Shown piece after piece: positions 4,131 to 64,000 of a stretch of DNA of 64,000 nucleotides. Source of the stretch: Streptomyces asoensis (GTDB lineage Bacteria > Actinomycetota > Actinomycetes > Streptomycetales > Streptomycetaceae); contig NZ_CP049838.1 in the NCBI RefSeq assembly GCF_013085465.1, forward strand, positions 4,030,001 to 4,094,000, read 5' to 3'. How positions within the stretch are numbered: position 1 is the first letter of the stretch; every line of letters starts with the position of its first letter. The position numbers and the translations under genes are program-made. The notes below the pieces were generated by a model. It searched no databases and was not told where the DNA came from. It saw only the letters and a list, made by a program, of their open reading frames with translations.

Positions 4131-5132
4131 TTACTCCCCCGGGCTCGGCTGCCGCCCCCTGTCCCTGTGTCCCCCGGGCCCCTCCCCCGACCGGAATGCC
4201 CGTCGATATCCCTGGGGGCTGGTGCCGACCACCTTGCGGAAGCGTTCGCGGAAGGCCGTCGGAGAGCCGAAACCCGCCTGGGTGGCGATGCGTTCCACCG
4301 GGTACGCCGTCGACTCCAGCAGGTACTGCGCGCGCCGCACCCGCGCCCGGTGCAGCCAGCGCAGCGGCGTCGTGCCGGTCTGTTCACGGAAGCGGCGGTT
4401 GAGGGTGCGGGTGCTCATACCGGCCCGCCCGGCGATCTGCTCCAGCGTCACCTCCCGGCCGCAGTTGTCCTCCAGCCAGGCCAGCACGGGTTCGAGGGTC
4501 GCCCCGGCGGGCGCGGGCGGCAGGTCGTGGACGATGAACTGGGCCTGGCCGCCCTCCCGTTCGAGCGGCATGACCGACATCCGGGCCGCCTGCGCGGCGA
4601 CCGCCGAGCCGTAGTCGCCGCGGATCATGTGCAGGCACATGTCGAGGGCCGCGGCGGCGCCCGCCGAGGTGAGGAACTGGCCGTTGTCGACATACAGGAC
4701 GTTCGGGTCGACCGTCACCTTCGGGTAGCGCTCGGCCAGCTCACGCGCCGCGATCCAGTGCGTCGTCGCGCGCAGTCCGTCCAGCAGGCCCGTCGCGGCG
4801 AACAGGAACGCGCCGACGCAGACCGAGGCGATCCGGGTGCCGCCCGCCGCAGCGTCCCGCAGGGCCTCCGCGACGCCGATCGGCAGCTCGTCCGGTGGGT
4901 TCGCGACCCCGGGCAGGATGATCGTGTCCGCCTCGGCCAGCGCCTCGAGCCCGTACGGCGCGCGCACGGTGAACGCCCCCGCGCTCACCTCCCCGGAGGG
5001 GGACGGCGAGCAGACCCTGACGCGGTACGCCGGGCGCCCGTCGGGCAGCCGCGGCCAGCCGAAGGCGTCGATCGGGGCGGACAGGTCGAACGGGACGACC
5101 CCGTCCAGGACCAGTACGGCGACGGTGTGCAT
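4131..5132 (-). CDS. GlxA-family transcriptional regulator (DJ-1/PfpI plus AraC)
   Basis: A 333-aa regulator with an N-terminal class-I-amidotransferase-like sensor domain (about 1-175) and an AraC-type double helix-turn-helix (about 225-320, MSTRTLNRRFREQTGTTP, then IATQAGFGSPTAFRERF). Cys105 in IASVCVGAFLFAA sits at the nucleophile-elbow position of the DJ-1 fold. GlxA-family members in Streptomyces influence development and secondary metabolism; the ligand and targets here are unknown. TACGCT at 5139-5144 stands exactly 6 nt before the ATG, so the mRNA is probably leaderless. Confidence 0.9.
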   Translation of the reverse strand: MHTVAVLVLDGVVPFDLSAPIDAFGWPRLPDGRPAYRVRVCSPSPSGEVSAGAFTVRAPYGLEALAEADTIILPGVANPPDELPIGVAEALRDAAAGGTRIASVCVGAFLFAATGLLDGLRATTHWIAARELAERYPKVTVDPNVLYVDNGQFLTSAGAAAALDMCLHMIRGDYGSAVAAQAARMSVMPLEREGGQAQFIVHDLPPAPAGATLEPVLAWLEDNCGREVTLEQIAGRAGMSTRTLNRRFREQTGTTPLRWLHRARVRRAQYLLESTAYPVERIATQAGFGSPTAFRERFRKVVGTSPQGYRRAFRSGEGPGGHRDRGRQPSPGE

Positions 5133-5578
5133 GGCAAGAGCGTAGGTGTACGACGGATTACGGCCACCCCGGCCCCCTGGTCACCGGCGACCGCCGCCCC
5201 CGCCGCCGCGCCCGCCCCCGCCGCCGCGCCCGCGCCCGCCGCCGCGCCCGCCCCTGCGCCCGCCCCACATTCGCCCCGAGCCCGATCCGCGCCCACCCCG
5301 AGCCCCCTGGCACCCGCCCCACCCGATCCACGCCCGCCCCGAGCCCGCCGGCACCCGATCCGTGCCCCGAACCACGCCCGTCCGGCACCCCCTCCTCACC
5401 CGCACCGCGCCCCACCCGCACCGCGCCCCACCCGCACCGCGCCCCACCCACCAGCGCCCCGCACCCGCAACCGCGCCGCACCCGCACACACACCCGCAAC
5501 CACCCCCTGGCGAGAATCCGTCGCCCTCTGGCATTTCCGCCGCTTCTGTGGGGCGAGCGCGCCGCCTAGCGTCGGTGT
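5133..5578. other. 446-bp gene-free, C-rich stretch between divergent genes
   Basis: No credible gene. The plus strand is strongly C-biased with Pro/Arg/His-like triplet runs in all frames, so the open frames here are composition artefacts. It contains three perfect 16-bp repeats (separate entry) and the leaderless promoters of both flanking genes at its edges. Confidence 0.7.
5401..5448. repeat. Three 16-bp tandem repeats
   Basis: Three perfect copies of CGCACCGCGCCCCACC lie in the C-rich intergenic stretch. No function is apparent. Confidence 0.8.
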
Positions 5579-57361: not shown

Positions 57362-57433
57362 GGCCGTGTGCCCGAGTGGCTTAGGGACTCGCCTGCAAAG
57401 CGAGGTACGTGGGTTCAATTCCCGCCACGGCCT
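57362..57433 (+). tRNA. tRNA-Cys, anticodon GCA
   Basis: A 72-nt cloverleaf: acceptor GGCCGTG/CACGGCC, anticodon stem CTCGC/GCGAG around CTGCAAA (anticodon GCA), T-arm GTGGG-TTCAATT-CCCGC, and discriminator U, which is the identity base for tRNA-Cys. CCA is not encoded. The DNA downstream changes to lower GC. Confidence 0.94.
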
Positions 57434-57462
57434 CTGACCGGCCTGACCAGGCAGAACGAGAG

Positions 57463-57488
57463 GGCGGCACTCCTTCGGGGGTGCCGCC
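57463..57488 (+). terminator. Terminator of tRNA-Cys
   Basis: An 11-bp stem beginning GGCGGCAC, closed by a TTCG tetraloop and followed by TTTT: a classical intrinsic terminator, 30 nt after the tRNA. Confidence 0.9.
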
Positions 57489-57646
57489 TTTTCGACCGTC
57501 CGTCTCAGAGCGGACACCGAGACGATGTCGCCGCGGCGATCATGTTTTCTACCGTGGCGCCTCGGCGTGACTTTTGGAAAATGCCACACCTCGGGCGCTC
57601 GGATCCGTCTCGGTTTCCTCTGTCGATGGAAGCAATTCCTGTGGAG

Positions 57647-58150
57647 TCACATTCGGTCGTACGGGTCCCTGTCTTTTGTTGGACCGGAACCCGCGGGCGA
57701 TGCCAGCAGTACTCGAATCGCCCGACTGATAAGCCCTCCGCCGGAACTGGCCGTCATGTCCAGCCTCGCCAGCCGGATGCGCAGCTCGGCTTTCTGTAGT
57801 TTGCTCAGACTGAGGGACGCGTCGACCTCGTGAAGGAGGTCCAGAACGCGCACCATCGCTCGCCCCTCGCGGCGGAAAACTCGCTGATTCATGCTTCTTC
57901 GCTGAAGCCATTGAAACAGAGAGCCGGTGAGCGCAAGCGTCCAGGCGACGTAATAGGCCGGATCTATCAGCGCAAGGGTTTTCGGATGAGAGGTCAGGAA
58001 CGCGGCGCCGCCGAGGGAAGCGGCGGCCAGAAGCGTGAAAAGGCTTTCGCCGGCCGTGGAGAGTCGACTGCTCCGATCGATCTTCTCCTGCATCTCTTCG
58101 GCAAGTTCGAGCATTTTCTGCACATCATGCCATTCCTCATCCGAGTTCAT
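57647..58150 (-). CDS. Two-TM protein of unknown function, partner of the GTPase
   Basis: 167 aa. An N-terminal helix (MNSDEEWHDVQKMLELAEEM), two membrane helices at about 33-53 and 60-82, a basic loop (QRRSMNQRVFRREGRAMVRV) and a cytoplasmic helical domain (SLSLSKLQKAELRIRLARLD). The layout, two membrane helices followed by a coiled domain, resembles SLATT-type effectors of bacterial conflict systems, but no sequence motif proves it. It overlaps the GTPase gene by 4 nt (ATGA). Third positions are richer in A/T than the surroundings. Confidence 0.8.
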   Translation of the reverse strand: MNSDEEWHDVQKMLELAEEMQEKIDRSSRLSTAGESLFTLLAAASLGGAAFLTSHPKTLALIDPAYYVAWTLALTGSLFQWLQRRSMNQRVFRREGRAMVRVLDLLHEVDASLSLSKLQKAELRIRLARLDMTASSGGGLISRAIRVLLASPAGSGPTKDRDPYDRM

Positions 58151-58977
58151 GACGCGGAGATTCGGTCGTCAATGGCCTTCAAGAGGCCCAGGAGGAGCTT
58201 GTTGCGCTGGTCAGGGAGAAGCATTGACTGGACGCCTTCCTCCTCCCAGATGAAATCACTCAGTGAGGCGCATACCGGCAGGGCGTCCCACTCGAAGTCG
58301 GTCCGCCCCAGGGATGCGCCAAGTTGATCCAAGCATGCGAAGAACTGGCCACCGGGGGCGGCATAGTGCCTGTAGGCACCCTTGAGACTGGTGTCCTCGT
58401 AATACAGGTCGACTTTGTTCACGGCCAGCAACAACCAGGAAGGCCCTTTCCCCTTCCGGTGCGATGACTTGACGTAACTGATCAGTTCCTTGAACTCTTC
58501 CACCTCTTTGTTCCTCTGGAACTCCCGAAACCTTTCCAGGTCATTGTGCTCCTGCGCGAGCTCTCTCGCATCCTGCTCTCGCAGGGTGATAAATCCGTTG
58601 CTGACGACGTGAATGACTCCGTCTACCCGGCGCCGCCCATCGAACAGTTCGTCGAGACTCTTGTCTTTCTGCGGGGAGACTTGTCCCGGAACGATGGTGA
58701 GTGCCGTCAGCCTCTTGCTGGAATAGAGCTCCTTGCGCTCCTGATTGACCGACCTTCCCGGTGTTGAGTAGTGGATCGACAACCCTTCTCCCGAAAGATA
58801 GTCGGAGAGTACGGTTTTCCCCACGCCTCCCACACCGGTTATGGCTATCGAGGACTGCCTGTGCATGATCTTCGTGATGATTCTGTGCCAGGTGGAAGCA
58901 ATTTGCTGCCGCTCGCTATAAGCTGTCATACCAGCGCGCACTGCCAGCGTCGCTACGGACCATGGTTCGACCGGCAT
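58147..58977 (-). CDS. P-loop GTPase of unknown family
   Basis: 276 aa. G1 is GVGGVGKT (48-55), a G3-like VPGQ at about 96-99 stands where DxxG normally lies, G4 is NKVD (187-190), and VCASLSDF fits G5. So it is a Ras-like GTPase, with a Gln next to the G3 Gly. The segment 130-175 is a charged helical insert between G3 and G4. It is first in a two-gene operon with a two-TM protein, beside tRNA-Cys, in lower-GC DNA, which suggests acquisition by transfer. The signal transmitted and the target are unknown. Confidence 0.82.
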   Translation of the reverse strand: MPVEPWSVATLAVRAGMTAYSERQQIASTWHRIITKIMHRQSSIAITGVGGVGKTVLSDYLSGEGLSIHYSTPGRSVNQERKELYSSKRLTALTIVPGQVSPQKDKSLDELFDGRRRVDGVIHVVSNGFITLREQDARELAQEHNDLERFREFQRNKEVEEFKELISYVKSSHRKGKGPSWLLLAVNKVDLYYEDTSLKGAYRHYAAPGGQFFACLDQLGASLGRTDFEWDALPVCASLSDFIWEEEGVQSMLLPDQRNKLLLGLLKAIDDRISAS

Positions 58978-59158
58978 GCGGGACCCCTTCGATATGACCT
59001 GCCTCCTGGAGGAGATCTATCTCCGAAGGGGAGTAATCATGCGCGCCATTTGCCAACTGCTCATTTTTGGTACAAGAGAGTCGGCCAGCCTTCATAAGTC
59101 GACTGATCCTGGTTTCGTAAGATGCAAATATTGATCAGCTGTGACGGTCGCGCGGTCG
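58978..59158. other. AT-richer intergenic region between the GTPase and a small secreted gene
   Basis: About 180 bp with base composition unlike the core genome (for example TTTTTGGTACAAGAGAG). Probably holds the GTPase operon promoter. No gene seen. Confidence 0.5.
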
Positions 59159-59566
59159 TCAGCCTGCCGAGCAGAGGCCGCCGTCCGGGCAGAACATCAC
59201 CCACGTGAAGTTGTAGCCGGTTCGGATGGTGACGGGGTTCGGCGTGGGGCCGTCGTTGATGTAGGAACCCGAGTCGGGGGTGGCGGTGAAGGTGACCGTC
59301 GCGCCGACCTCGAAGCTCGCGGTGCAGGTGCCCGTCGGGTACGGCTGCGGTTCGTTGTTCGCGTACGGATCCCAAGCCGACTGGTGGCAGTTGATGCCGG
59401 CGGGCTGGCTGGTGATGGTGCCGCCGCCCCAGCCGTCGCTGACCCACGCGGACAGTTGAGCGGTGGACTGGGCCTGAACCGGTGCGACGGAGGCGATCGC
59501 GGCGGCCGTGGCGAGTGCGGTGACGATTCCCGTCGCGCGCCAGGCGCCCTTTCTGTTCTTCCTCAT
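59159..59566 (-). CDS. Small secreted protein of unknown function
   Basis: 135 aa. A signal peptide (KNRKGAWRATG, then a hydrophobic run ending PVQAQS) is followed by a mature domain of about 95 residues with three Cys (INCHQS, GTCTAS, FCPDGGLC has two more; total four in the mature part) that looks beta-sandwich-like (ATVTFTATPDSGSYIND). Family unknown. ATG 59566 follows GAGGAG at 6 nt; the longer frame has no support. Confidence 0.75.
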   Translation of the reverse strand: MRKNRKGAWRATGIVTALATAAAIASVAPVQAQSTAQLSAWVSDGWGGGTITSQPAGINCHQSAWDPYANNEPQPYPTGTCTASFEVGATVTFTATPDSGSYINDGPTPNPVTIRTGYNFTWVMFCPDGGLCSAG

Positions 59567-59735
59567 GGAAGGCTCCTCGGATCGAACCATGCCGACCCCC
59601 TACGACCAGCCTATTCGCCCCCTTGGCCGGCTGCTGCGGGAGCGGGTGGCCGGCCGCGCCGTACCCTTCCAGACCGCGACGGCCGTCAGACGAGTCACAC
59701 CGACAGCCGCGACCCGGCTCTCTCGGTCGTCCGTC

Positions 59736-60527
59736 TCAGCTCTCGTCGGAAACAGCCTCCTCCGGCGCCTCTGTCAGTGGCAGTTGGGCCTGCACCCGCC
59801 TGATCACTGCGTGAACGTGCGGCATGTCGAGCGGAGTTCGCCCAAGCGCGGTCCGGAGCTCTCGCAAGTCATGCCGCAGGGCGAACAGAGCCTCGGGGCT
59901 CAGTTCCAGCTGATCAAGTCGGTCCAGCAGACCACTGAGCGCATGCAGGAGCTGTACCCGACAACGCTCTTCGGCGCTCATCAGGGGCTCATGTCGCAGG
60001 ACTACCATGTCCGACAACGCGGACTCCCACGCCGGTTCGAACGCCAGGGAACGCTTCCCGTGCGGGGAGTCGCTCTCCGGCTCCGGCGGTGTCCGATCCG
60101 TACTCGCCCGACGCGGCTCGGACAGCTCCCTCGTCATGGTCTGGGTCACCGCGCCATTGTTGATCGCCACCTGGCTGTTGGTGATCTGTCCGAGGAACAC
60201 CACCATCAAGGGGTCCGGCGTGTCGGCGGCCCGCGACCGGGCCGCTCCGAGCGAACTGCCCGGGTCGGGACGAGACTCCGCATCAGGTCCCGAATGCTGG
60301 GTCGGCTGCCGCTTCTCGACGGACTCCCGCGCACCGGACGACGAGGTCGGCGTCCGCTGCCCCTGCGCCCCGGACGTCGGCGTCCGCTGCCCCTGCACCC
60401 CGGAAGTCGGCGTCCGCTGCCCCTGCACCCCGGAAGTCGGCGTCCGCCCCGCCTCGGGCTCCGCATGTGGCTGCGACACACCACGCTGTTTGGTCGACTG
60501 CACTCCTTTGGGCTGCGCACTGGCCAT
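59736..60527 (-). CDS. Repeat-containing protein with a Gln/Asn-Gly motif, unknown function
   Basis: 263 aa. Residues 29-60 are three to four copies of TPTSGVQGQR (10 aa), followed by a disordered segment, an isolated motif QITNSQVAINNGAVTQT (114-130) of alternating hydrophobic and polar residues around Asn-Asn-Gly, a linker, and a helical C-terminal domain of about 90 residues (LHALSGLLDRLDQLELS, RHDLRELRTALG). The motif resembles short amyloid/beta-arch motifs used for effector recruitment, but this is only pattern likeness. ATG 60527 follows GGGGGAT. No family recognised. Confidence 0.72.
   Translation of the reverse strand: MASAQPKGVQSTKQRGVSQPHAEPEAGRTPTSGVQGQRTPTSGVQGQRTPTSGAQGQRTPTSSSGARESVEKRQPTQHSGPDAESRPDPGSSLGAARSRAADTPDPLMVVFLGQITNSQVAINNGAVTQTMTRELSEPRRASTDRTPPEPESDSPHGKRSLAFEPAWESALSDMVVLRHEPLMSAEERCRVQLLHALSGLLDRLDQLELSPEALFALRHDLRELRTALGRTPLDMPHVHAVIRRVQAQLPLTEAPEEAVSDES
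60351..60440. repeat. Three 30-bp tandem repeats inside the repeat-protein gene
   Basis: Units at 60351, 60381 and 60411 start CGTCCGCTGCCCCTGC and end GTCGG with two variable positions, plus a partial fourth. They encode the decapeptide TPTSG(V/A)QGQR. Confidence 0.9.
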
Positions 60528-61139
60528 GTAAATCCCCCATAGTGCGAGTGCCTTACCCAAAGCGTAGCGAACCCGGCTGACCGACCGGTGACGCAGGGGA
60601 GGCCTGAGGTGTCGCTCCCCTCCCTGTCTCACAGTTGTCGGTGTTGTCGGCCGATCCACCGAGTCAGGCCGGTGAGGTATCCGGGTGCCAGGCGGGCGCC
60701 GGGGACCGGGTGGATGCGGTGGTCGAAGAGGGCCGGGGAGCCGTCGATGTCGAGTCCCGCCGCGCCTGTCGCCGCTCACGCAGGGCGTGGGACAGCGCGT
60801 GACGTTCCTGGGCGGCCGGAGTCACCCCCGGGCAACTGCGCAGCCACATCCGCCATGGCCGCGCCCGGGCACCCCGCGTCGCGGTCCGGCGTCGTCGGCG
60901 AATCGGCCGGGCTCACCGGCCAGCTCCGGAAAGTGAGATCGCGTAGGGCCGGATCCCTCGCCATCAGGCCGGCCTCCTCGTTTCGGCGGCGCACACTCCC
61001 CCGCCGGAGCAACACACCTTTCCGTTCCCCCGATTTAACCTACGCCCCCTTAACAACCCCCTCTCTACGCGCGTAACTTGAGCCGACTCCCCCACACCGC
61101 CATCGGCCGTACACGACGACGTACGAGGAGACCTCCAGC
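60528..61139. other. 612-bp region without an intact gene
   Basis: Contains a probable decayed gene on the minus strand (separate entry) and, at its right end, the leader of the secreted nuclease. A lower-GC patch at about 61020-61060 (CGATTTAACC..TTAACAACCCC) may hold the nuclease promoter. Confidence 0.55.
60629..61015 (-). pseudogene. Possible decayed gene
   Basis: Short protein-like segments occur in different minus-strand frames: one ends FDHRIHPVPGARLAPGYLTG..RWIGRQHRQL at 60629, interrupted upstream by TGA at 60776-60778; others read LMARDPALRDLTFRSWPVS and WLRSCPGVTPAAQERHALSH. The pattern looks like a gene broken by frameshifts, with no family recognised. It could also be chance in GC-rich DNA. 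Confidence 0.3.
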
Positions 61140-63584
61140 GTGTCCAGACCCGTAGGAAACAGAACCCGCCGTGCCGCCTACGCGCTCATATCCGTGGGTG
61201 TGGCGAGCGCGTTCGCCATCACCTCGCTGCCCGCCGCCTACGCGACGCCGTCCGCCACCGCGGTGATCTCCGAGGTGTACGGCGGTGGCGGGAACTCCGG
61301 GGCGACCCTGACCCGGGACTTCGTCGAGCTGGGCAACGCGGGGTCGGCTGCCTACGACCTGGCCGGGTACAGCGTGCAGTACCTGCCGGGTGCGCCGTCG
61401 GCGTCCTCGCTGTGGCAGGTGACGGCGCTGAGCGGGGCCGTCGCGCCCGGCGGGCGTTTCCTCGTCGCCGAGGCCGCCGGGACCGGAGGGAGCACCGCGC
61501 TGCCCACCGCCGACGCCACCGGTTCCGTCGCCATGAGCGCCACCAGCGGCACCATCGCCCTCGTCTCCGGTACCACCGCCCTGACGTGCAAGACCGCCGC
61601 CGACTGCGCCGCCGACGGTCGGATCGTCGACCTGGTCGGCTACGGCAGCGCCCTCGTACGGGAGGGCAGCGGGCCTGCCACCGGGGCCTCCAACACCGCC
61701 GCCGTCGCGCGGGGCGCCGCCCTGGGCGACACCGACGACAACGCCGCCGACCTCACGGCCGGTACCCCATCGCCCGTCAACTCCGCCGGAGGGACTCCTG
61801 GTTCGGGCGACGGCGGCGGGGACGGTGGAGACGGCGGTGGCGATCCGACCACGCCCGGTACCGTCCGCGTCCACAACATCCAGGGCACCACCCGGCTCTC
61901 CCCGCTCGCCGGGCAGACCGTCAGCCGAGTGCCGGGCATCGTCACCGGGGTGCGGACCTCCGGGTCCAAGGGGTACTGGATCCAGGATCCGACGGCGGAC
62001 GCCGACTCCCGCACCAGCGAGGGCGTGTTCGTGTACACCGGGTCCGCCACGCCCACCGTCGCCGTCGGCGACTCCGTGCTGGTCAGCGGCAAGGTCAGCG
62101 AGTACTACCCGAGCAGCACCAGCCAGTCGGTCACCGAGCTCACCGCCCCCACCGCGACCGTGCTGTCCAGCGGCAACGCGCTGCCCGCCGCCGTCGCCCT
62201 GAGCGCCGCGAACGTGCCCGCCGCGTACATCCCCACCGCCGGTGGCGGCAGCATCGAGTCGCTCGCCCTCGAACCGGCCGTGTACGCCCAGGACTTCTAC
62301 GAGTCGACGGAGGGGATGCGGGTCGCGTTCTCCGACGCCCGTGTCGTCGGCGCGAGCGACGCGTACGGCGAGCTGTGGGTGACCGTCAAGCCGGACGAGA
62401 ACGCCACGGCCCGCGGCGGGACGCTCTACCCCTCCTACGACCAGCCGGGCACCGGTCGTCTTGAGGTCATGTCGCTCGACACCACCACCGCCTTCCCCTC
62501 CGCCGACGTCGGCGACGAACTGTCCGGCACCACCACCGGGCCGCTCGACTACTCCACCTACGGCGGCTACAACGTCCAGGCCACGCAGCTCGGCACCCTG
62601 GTCGACAACGGGCTGAAGCAGGAAGTGACCCGTCGGCAGAAGGGCGACGAGCTCGCGGTCGCCACGTACAACGTGGAGAACCTGGACGCGCTGGACGCCC
62701 AGGAGAAGATCGACCGGCTCGCGCACGGGGTCGCCGTCAACCTCAACTCCCCCGATGTCGTCGCCCTGGAGGAGATCCAGGACGACAACGGCGCCACCAA
62801 CGACGGCACCGTCACCTCCGAGGCCACCCTGAAGCGGTTCACCGACGCCATCCGCGCCGCCGGCGGCCCCCGCTACCAGTGGCGCTACATCGCCCCCACC
62901 GACAACCAGGACGGCGGGGAGCCCGGCGGCAACATCCGTCAGGTCTTCCTCTTCAACCCCAAGCGGGTCTCCTTCACCGACCGGGCCGGCGGTGACGCCG
63001 TCACGGCAACCAGCGTGGTGAAGACCAGGAAGGGCGCGAAGCTCACCGCCTCCCCGGGGCGCATCGACCCGGCCTCCGACGCCTGGGACAACAGCCGCAA
63101 GCCGCTGGTCGGCGAGTTCGTCTTCCACGGGGAGACGGTCTTCGTGATCGCCAACCACTTCACCTCCAAGGGCGGCGACCAGCCCCTGCACGGCCGCTAC
63201 CAGCCGCCGTCACGCAGCTCCGAGACCCAGCGCCAGGCACAGGCGGCCGAGGTGAACTCCTTCGTCAAGTCCCTGCTCGCGGCGGACAAGAACGCCAAGA
63301 CCGTGGTGCTCGGCGACCTCAACGACTACGAGTTCTCCCAGACCGTGGCCACCCTCACCGCCGGCCGTGTCCTCACCCCGCTGATCACCACCCTGCCGGC
63401 CGCCGAGCGGTACACCTACGTCTACGACGGCAACTCGCAGACCCTGGACCACATCCTCACCAGCCCGGCCGTCACGCACTACGACTACGACGTGGTGCAC
63501 ATCAACGCCGAGTTCGCCGACCAGGCCAGCGATCACGACCCGCAGGTCGTACGGATCGACGTCAGCCGGTGCCGCAGGGGCTGA
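61140..63584 (+). CDS. Secreted endonuclease/exonuclease/phosphatase-family nuclease (ExeM/NucH-like)
   Basis: 814 aa. Signal peptide (ALISVGVASAFAITSLPAAY), a lamin-tail domain at about 38-205 (AVISEVYGGGGNSGATLTRD, FVELGN), a Gly/Asp linker, an OB-fold-like domain (GIVTGVRTSGSKGYWIQDP) and a C-terminal EEP nuclease with YNVENLD, ALEEIQDDNGATNDG, GDLNDYEF and ASDHDPQVVRID. It degrades extracellular DNA, probably for nutrition; this layout is shared by ExeM-type nucleases. GTG 61140 follows GAGGAG at 9 nt. Confidence 0.93.
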   Translation: MSRPVGNRTRRAAYALISVGVASAFAITSLPAAYATPSATAVISEVYGGGGNSGATLTRDFVELGNAGSAAYDLAGYSVQYLPGAPSASSLWQVTALSGAVAPGGRFLVAEAAGTGGSTALPTADATGSVAMSATSGTIALVSGTTALTCKTAADCAADGRIVDLVGYGSALVREGSGPATGASNTAAVARGAALGDTDDNAADLTAGTPSPVNSAGGTPGSGDGGGDGGDGGGDPTTPGTVRVHNIQGTTRLSPLAGQTVSRVPGIVTGVRTSGSKGYWIQDPTADADSRTSEGVFVYTGSATPTVAVGDSVLVSGKVSEYYPSSTSQSVTELTAPTATVLSSGNALPAAVALSAANVPAAYIPTAGGGSIESLALEPAVYAQDFYESTEGMRVAFSDARVVGASDAYGELWVTVKPDENATARGGTLYPSYDQPGTGRLEVMSLDTTTAFPSADVGDELSGTTTGPLDYSTYGGYNVQATQLGTLVDNGLKQEVTRRQKGDELAVATYNVENLDALDAQEKIDRLAHGVAVNLNSPDVVALEEIQDDNGATNDGTVTSEATLKRFTDAIRAAGGPRYQWRYIAPTDNQDGGEPGGNIRQVFLFNPKRVSFTDRAGGDAVTATSVVKTRKGAKLTASPGRIDPASDAWDNSRKPLVGEFVFHGETVFVIANHFTSKGGDQPLHGRYQPPSRSSETQRQAQAAEVNSFVKSLLAADKNAKTVVLGDLNDYEFSQTVATLTAGRVLTPLITTLPAAERYTYVYDGNSQTLDHILTSPAVTHYDYDVVHINAEFADQASDHDPQVVRIDVSRCRRG

Positions 63585-63616
63585 CCGCAGAGCAGGAGAG
63601 CCGGTGCGGGCGCGGG

Positions 63617-64000
63617 CTACGCGTACAGGCCCCCGCCCGCCTCGTCCTCGAAGACGCCCGGCCAGTACCGCCGGCCGTCGTCCGTGGGGACGGCCGGGAC
63701 CGGGGTCGGGTCGCAGGCGACCGGGTCGACCGCGGCCAGGGTGCGGGACATCGTCTCGGCGAGCTGGTCGTAGGCCTCGGTCAGCCGGTGCACCGCGTCC
63801 AGGGCCCGCTCACGGCGGATCAGCCAGAGGGTGAACGCCAGCGTCGAGATGTCGGCGTTGAGCGGGCGCAGGCCGAGATCCGGCTCGCTCCAGCTCAGCA
63901 CCGCGCCCGTGGCGCCGTCGACGACCAGGCTGGTCTCCTCGAGGAGATGGCCCAGGCGGATCAGCCGGTCGGCGTTCGCGGGCAGCCGCTCCTCGGTGAG
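63617..64000 (-). CDS. SUKH-4-like immunity protein, partial at window edge
   Basis: C-terminal 127 residues only; the gene continues beyond the right end. The pattern LVVDGATGAVLSWSEPDLGL, RPLNADISTLAFTLWLIRRE and LTEAYDQLAETMSRTLAAVD matches the C-terminal half of SUKH-4 proteins. SUKH families protect against polymorphic toxins, but Streptomyces carry many copies without a paired toxin. Whether a toxin gene lies outside the window is not visible. Terminal GVFEDEAGGGLYA before the stop. Confidence 0.7.
   Translation of the reverse strand, partial: LTEERLPANADRLIRLGHLLEETSLVVDGATGAVLSWSEPDLGLRPLNADISTLAFTLWLIRRERALDAVHRLTEAYDQLAETMSRTLAAVDPVACDPTPVPAVPTDDGRRYWPGVFEDEAGGGLYA

Follow-up and report, generated by a model that had tools for sequence, protein, structure and literature searches.

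A pair of small overlapping genes convergent to a tRNA-Cys gene forms one unit, composed of a Ras-like GTPase and a partner with two predicted membrane helices. We consider that this two-gene module, which recurs in or beside mobile DNA, has about an even chance of being a switch directed against phages (or against rival phages), with the GTPase as putative sensor of infection and activator of the predicted membrane partner. The pair is encoded in a stretch of 64,000 nucleotides of Streptomyces asoensis DNA, hereafter called the window, for which a preliminary description had proposed a mobile conflict or signalling module. This proposal is supported by the tRNA-Cys hotspot in which the pair resides, by its sparse distribution, by the constant pairing of the two genes, and by the phage, plasmid and restriction contexts of homologous pairs.

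Both genes are located on the minus strand. The GTPase gene (58147–58977, 276 aa) is followed by the partner gene encoding the predicted two-helix membrane protein (57647–58150, 167 aa), and the stop codon of the former overlaps the start codon of the latter within an ATGA (58147–58150, minus strand), so that the 4-nt overlap previously reported is borne out by the ORF coordinates and the junction sequence. The pair had also been placed directly after a tRNA gene and its terminator. A tRNA-Cys(gca) gene is indeed predicted by ARAGORN at 57362–57434 on the plus strand, and a G+C hairpin with a T run can be read from the sequence directly after it; the pair, however, is not downstream of but convergent to this tRNA gene, the two 3' ends being separated by 212 nt. 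Similarly, the codons of the pair had been described as richer in A/T than those of all neighbours. Among the ORFs obtained with a GC3-guided caller (48 kept in all), the pair does have the lowest G+C content (57.3% and 59.9%, compared to a mean of 70.9% and a minimum of 65.8% for the other ORFs), whereas its GC3 values, although low (0.72 and 0.68), are not the lowest in the window (0.61).

To define the GTPase motifs, we aligned the window protein with 31 of its 34 relatives, the short P0030, P0031 and P0034 being left out. This alignment places G1 at ITGVGGVGKT, G3 at TIVPGQ and G4 at NKVD, and thereby confirms the motifs from which a Ras-like GTPase with an odd VPGQ at G3 had initially been proposed. 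The aligned members follow G-x4-GK[TS] at G1 and [NTD]KxD at G4, as expected of Ras-like proteins, whereas the DxxG expected at G3 is replaced by xxPG[Q], without the aspartate. Residue 95, at the position of the DxxG aspartate, is occupied by I, V or A (T in P0006) and is never acidic in the 32 aligned sequences, and P97, G98 and Q99 are invariant in a separate GTPase alignment. By-eye reading of G5 gave an Arf-like CAS, and ahead of the P-loop the protein has an N-terminal extension in which W6, Y20 and W30 are conserved. The fold is Ras-like and nearest to Rag/Gtr and Arl/Arf proteins, SRP-receptor chains also being among the matches. At the profile level, MMR_HSR1 of Pfam was matched slightly above its cut-off (8.2e-5, 23.1 bits, cut-off 21.9), and at E values up to 10 five Pfam families were obtained for the window GTPase, none of them named DO-GTPase; a PDB search by sequence yielded two matches with E values of 0.34 and 0.94. 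On the basis of its G1 and G4 motifs and of its fold, the 276-aa protein is thus predicted to be a Ras-like small GTPase in which the G3 aspartate is absent. No PADLOC model convincingly matches the proteins of the window: the best match of the window GTPase has an E value of 0.0027, and PDC-S73, a 752-position model matching 26 of the 32 GTPase members (best 3.9e-8), aligns in the window protein with residues 29–62 only, around the P-loop.

The partner begins with an N-terminal helix carrying an LAE motif, followed by two predicted membrane helices (about residues 36–54 and 61–83) and by C-terminal helices with the conserved E95, R126 and R129. The two-helix membrane protein proposed in the preliminary description is therefore recovered as two predicted segments, which are only moderate in the window copy (best 19-residue Kyte–Doolittle means of 1.53 and 1.10), the second helix being weak. 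A hydropathy above 1.6 is reached by two segments in, for example, the L004, L005, L020, L025 and L028 partners, and by one only in those of L002 and L022. Overall, the partner is conserved more in shape than in sequence. A17, E18, E95, R126 and R129 are nevertheless identical in eight out of eight distant copies, a count made without L027, upon inclusion of which A17 is no longer invariant; E18 is found in every row of a 13-row alignment, and A17, E95, R126 and R129 each in at least 90% of its rows. All five residues lie outside the membrane helices, as would be expected of a docking surface.

As far as profile searches can tell, the partner belongs to no Pfam or NCBIfam family, since nothing better than E 0.04 was obtained for the window copy in Pfam, NCBIfam, PADLOC or PHROGs. 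Weak matches were seen in one of 13 partner members each for DUF7134 (Pfam, 1.9e-4), a type VI effector model (NCBIfam, 0.0014) and a PADLOC 2TM effector (0.0069), PADLOC giving no match for the window partner. Homologue searches with the partner returned only four and nine proteins, its own cluster included, and most partners were therefore read from the DNA beside the GTPase gene. The structural comparison suggested at the outset was informative for the GTPase, with its Rag/Arl-like fold, and not for the partner, whose model is too poor to be searched (pLDDT 57.3).

Homologous loci were collected from genome_contigs (23), from viral_contigs (two contigs only, L025 and L090, over five scans), from plasmids (three records, of which two were new loci) and from whole genomes, and were split according to G3 type, P-G-Q or P-G-[DE], after they had been inspected. 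The P-G-Q set comprises 22 loci, namely the window, L002–L005, L020, L022, L025, L090, L075, L027–L030 and L123–L130, and is distributed over Actinomycetota, Pseudomonadota and Bacteroidota. A two-helix partner is present in all 22, as the next gene in 21 and fused to the GTPase in one frame in L003, the partner start being approximate in some loci, e.g. L130, and four partners having been read by eye. In contrast, none of the 19 P-G-[DE] loci (17 of the 23 from genome_contigs, L006–L019, L021, L023 and L024, together with L074 and L089) has a two-helix partner within 150 nt, and L012 has a four-helix ORF instead. The solo P-G-[DE] GTPase recurs in Nocardioides, Intrasporangium, Terrabacter, Dermacoccus and similar records.

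The two genes also overlap in L002, L025 and L090, as they do in the window, and the 4-nt overlap is identical in L002 and L025. Divergence of the GTPase is correlated with that of the partner (r 0.835, nine pairs, reached in none of 5000 shuffles), in a comparison covering nine of 19 candidate pairs, ten having been dropped by the start-finder; the distant subset gave a similar value (r 0.759, eight pairs, none of 20000 shuffles), and the correlation is partly due to shared descent. Furthermore, median dN/dS values of 0.21 and 0.31, obtained for the two genes from seven diverged Streptomyces copies outside the lineage of the window, indicate purifying selection on both. Taken together, the recurrence of the pairing across phyla and the purifying selection on both genes point to more than chance association. 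In Pseudomonas fragi (L020:9956–10808), the GTPase gene is frameshifted and the partner frame is intact, an observation from one genome that might reflect a sequencing error. In the Streptomycetaceae sub-lineage (L022, L027–L030, L123 and L128–L130), the pair is followed, at the loci inspected, by another small membrane gene of about 110–130 aa, which was seen nowhere else.

We next consider the genomic location of the window pair. With a 3.8-kb query spanning the site, matches were obtained in 56 of 61 related genomes, in some of these only as short chance-level pieces; the strongest ones extend over the MFS gene and the tRNA-Cys gene. From 30 matching loci, 12 were hand-chosen and fetched for comparison. 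The left side of the window aligns in all 12 relatives, the tRNA-Cys gene was found in 11, and synteny restarts about 6 kb further on, at window positions 63,616–63,723, in ten of them (not in L084 and L085). Within these ten, the site is near-empty, with about 185 to 577 bp, in L077, L079, L080 and L087, and the other six carry different cargo of 1.4 to 7.8 kb. A second tRNA-Cys copy, reaching from the anticodon loop to the 3' end, is located 3.4 to 4.7 kb away in L081–L083; this portion of a tRNA gene is the usual attachment core of tyrosine integrases, and Phage_integrase genes occur at the same tRNA-Cys site in L076 and L082. The near-empty sites, differing cargo, tRNA repeats and integrases together place the window pair within a variable interval of about 6 kb (57509–63620) at an integration hotspot. 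Neither a second tRNA-Cys copy nor a flanking attachment repeat was found around the window cargo, and no integrase was identified there, including among the three other cargo ORFs given to Pfam, so that this cargo is at best a remnant.

Besides the pair, the variable interval contains ORFs of 143 aa, with a signal-like N-terminus, and of 347 aa, as well as a nuclease-like gene (61140–63584) in which Pfam identifies lamin-tail and endonuclease/exonuclease/phosphatase domains. Three tandem copies with a 30-nt spacing are present at 60343–60454, inside the ORF at 59736–60779, where they encode TPTSGVQGQR-type repeated units, and the right flank of the hotspot (63620–63990) is occupied by what we take to be a SUKH-4-like immunity gene. 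A tRNA-Cys gene is also found 3.4 kb from the pair in Pacificibacter (L002); it was considered as an integration site and, no flanking repeat being found, was taken as coincidence.

The distribution of the GTPase is sparse. A search among 5.8 billion proteins listed 34 relatives, with identities of 97% in S. cacaoi and 87% in S. asoensis and of 27–46% in the others, mostly from metagenome-type sources. Strong matches were obtained in five of 392 Streptomyces genomes (its own and four diverged ones), 13 weak matches of this sample being excluded (E 4.8e-6 to 8.4e-4, over 32–63 model positions in frames of 477–1373 aa). With a broader model, at E 1e-8, 11 of 393 Streptomycetaceae genomes were matched (its own and ten diverged ones), in a sample overlapping the former, two of the ten already being part of the Streptomyces count. 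Two of 396 genomes matched in an Actinomycetota sample, its own and one of P-G-D type. A search of 50,697 phage records gave no match. The pair is accordingly accessory, not core, in Streptomyces. In the preliminary description, two observations had been named that would speak against a mobile module, namely homologues that are core and syntenic across most of the genus, and the assignment of both proteins to a known family; both were looked for, and neither was found.

The neighbourhoods of homologous pairs, a survey of which had likewise been proposed, were analyzed by Pfam for 25 neighbours at eight non-Streptomycetaceae loci, six of these neighbours being without family. Phage, mobile or restriction genes lie near the pair in six of the eight loci, the neighbours having been hand-picked as phage- or defence-looking and without a background rate. 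The L090 copy is embedded in a structural operon of a Mu-like phage, where it is flanked by a Phage_tail_S (virion morphogenesis) gene and by a Mu-like protease gene (Mu-like_Pro, 5.9e-96); Portal_Mu (4.9e-99) and Phage_Mu_F are found upstream, and an ORF of 249 aa with six helices lies in between. On the provirus contig L025, the pair is 36 nt from a Phage_integrase gene, beyond which lies a Toprim-type gene. In Rufibacter (L004), a PhageMin_Tail (minor tail) gene is found 5.6 kb downstream; in P. fragi (L020), the pair lies between a resolvase gene, 1.7 kb upstream of it, and a fragment with an integrase arm domain, 0.5 kb downstream. The pair of the Hymenobacter plasmid (L075) has transposase, GmrSD, PLD, HATPase and helicase genes within about 12 kb. 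In L003, a MAG labelled Akkermansia, a DNA_methylase gene adjoins the fused gene, and an HsdM_N fragment, DUF5131 and AbiEii (below cut-off) are also present. Here, a 477-bp direct repeat of 90% identity, read as thiC (L003:745–1221 and 4974–5450), brackets the fused GTPase-2TM gene, the cytosine methylase gene and a 348-aa ORF, an arrangement suggestive of the integration of a cassette into thiC. The two remaining loci are Pacificibacter (L002), with a UvrD helicase gene and the above-mentioned tRNA-Cys gene and nothing clearly mobile, and Flavobacterium (L005), where the one neighbour scanned is an HTH_3 gene and no mobile or defence gene was identified. In a diverged Streptomycetaceae clade (L028–L030), the flanking genes are common to all three loci, and the pair there looks resident; about 1.5 kb of flank was covered for these and for L027 and L123–L130.

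These observations are compatible with a model in which the GTPase, which has a Rag/Arl-like fold and a conserved N-terminal extension, would bind the partner at its conserved cytosolic helices, the putative docking surface being formed by the LAE helix before the first membrane helix and by E95, R126 and R129 after the second. An infection cue would alter the nucleotide state of the GTPase, whereupon the two-helix partner would oligomerise and permeabilise or block the inner membrane; the infected cell would cease to support the phage, and infection would be aborted. In this scheme, both the control of the GTPase over the partner and the anti-phage output are inferred. Several findings weigh against it: no PADLOC model matches convincingly, the phage records gave no match and viral contigs only two, L002 and L005 show no identified mobile or defence gene, the L028–L030 copies look resident, the window cargo has neither an identified integrase nor a second tRNA copy, and the partner has a poor structural model and, in the window, a weak second helix. 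More tentatively, the pair may constitute a minimal, phylum-crossing bacterial immune system carried on prophages, plasmids and tRNA islands. The two-helix protein would then form a membrane pore gated directly by the Arf/Rag-like GTPase, whose G3 is rewired to PGQ and lacks the Mg-binding Asp, and the pair would be the prokaryotic equivalent of membrane effectors controlled by small GTPases.

A rather unlikely reading, which we nonetheless keep open, is that of a membrane-recruitment or signalling GTPase in the style of Arf, SR-beta or MglA, with the partner as its receptor or anchor and a non-lethal output such as envelope stress, polarity or secretion. What keeps it open is the fold, which is shared with membrane-recruited GTPases, together with the resident look of some copies, those of L028–L030 with their common flanks; the conserved extension carrying W6, Y20 and W30 also fits, Arf proteins having an N-terminal extension before the P-loop. 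The sparse, patchy distribution and the repeated occurrence of the pair at phage, plasmid and restriction loci are less easily reconciled with such a role. These same contexts bear on prophage superinfection exclusion, in which the partner would block DNA entry of a rival phage, the GTPase would tune its placement and the cell would survive. Small membrane proteins are the usual exclusion factors, and two copies of the pair fit this role, that of L090 being part of a Mu-like structural operon and that of L025 adjoining an integrase gene on a provirus contig. The pair is, however, also found on a plasmid and in a restriction neighbourhood, and simple exclusion proteins are not known to need a GTPase, so that we regard exclusion as unlikely.

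Two small overlapping genes, often on mobile DNA and with the GTPase gene first, could in principle also encode an addiction pair, with the two-helix protein acting as toxin and the GTPase neutralising it. A toxin should not persist without its antitoxin, and the intact partner beside a frameshifted GTPase gene in P. fragi, albeit in this one genome, makes a toxin–antitoxin pair very improbable. A trigger role of the GTPase is more likely than that of an antitoxin, because a broken GTPase next to an intact partner is easier to accommodate if the GTPase activates, with the same reservation of a single genome and a possible sequencing error. The least probable reading, to which we attach hardly any weight, is that of ordinary core genes beside a tRNA gene with no special conflict role: nothing speaks for it beyond the database annotation 'GTPase domain-containing protein', and it is contradicted by the distribution (five of 392 and 11 of 393 genomes) and by the variable hotspot.

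Returning to the anti-phage switch, should the pair confer protection against phages, it would rank with the smallest immune systems driven by a GTPase, consisting of a switch and a membrane effector only, and would provide a clean model for how a small GTPase senses infection. The presence of the partner beside P-G-Q GTPases and its absence beside those of P-G-[DE] type offer a ready evolutionary control for the role of the glutamine.

The preliminary description knew of no system with exactly these two parts, and in agreement with this, no description of the two-gene pair was found in the open-licence PMC literature, outside of which most subscription papers fall. Compared to the Arf/Arl and Rag/Gtr small GTPases, the GTPase of the pair is bacterial, is paired with a 2TM partner, and has a non-acidic residue in place of the G3 aspartate. 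RexAB of phage lambda resembles the pair as a prophage-borne sensor with a membrane effector, and differs from it in that RexA is not known to be a GTPase. SLATT 2TM effectors share with the partner two membrane helices followed by cytosolic helices, the second helix being weak in the window copy, and one partner homologue (P0047, S. spiroverticillatus) is named SLATT in UniRef. Membership of the SLATT group, which had been among the comparisons suggested, found no support in profile searches and hhalign: no SLATT profile is among the 22 Pfam families listed for 13 partner members, the NCBIfam cut-off was not reached (best E 0.047 for SLATT_1, in three of 13 members, and 0.12 for SLATT_4), and hhalign against SLATT_1, represented by 28 Streptomyces stretches from 28 of 30 SLATT loci, gave probabilities of 5.6–7.7% (E 0.002–0.0045 as a single comparison, on shallow alignments).

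GTPase-centric conflict systems with SLATT 2TM effectors have been described by Kaur et al. 2020 (PMC7159879), and these DO-GTPase/GAP1 systems are defined by DO-GTPases with a Walker-B glutamate together with GAP1. The pair differs in having two genes only and a 2TM protein that is not detectably SLATT. The Walker-B glutamate is absent from its GTPase, in which residue 95 is never acidic, and a GAP1 gene (and GASH or FNIII) was looked for beside the pair: judged from the neighbours, which are an integrase gene in L025, a phage protease gene in L090, and the 143-aa ORF and the tRNA gene in the window, no GAP1-sized gene is present at these three loci. Within the open-licence literature, DO-GTPase/GAP1 systems, whose defining parts are missing here, nevertheless appear to be the nearest described systems, sharing with the pair a mobile neighbourhood, a TRAFAC-type GTPase, in some of them a two-helix membrane protein, and a predicted role in conflict.
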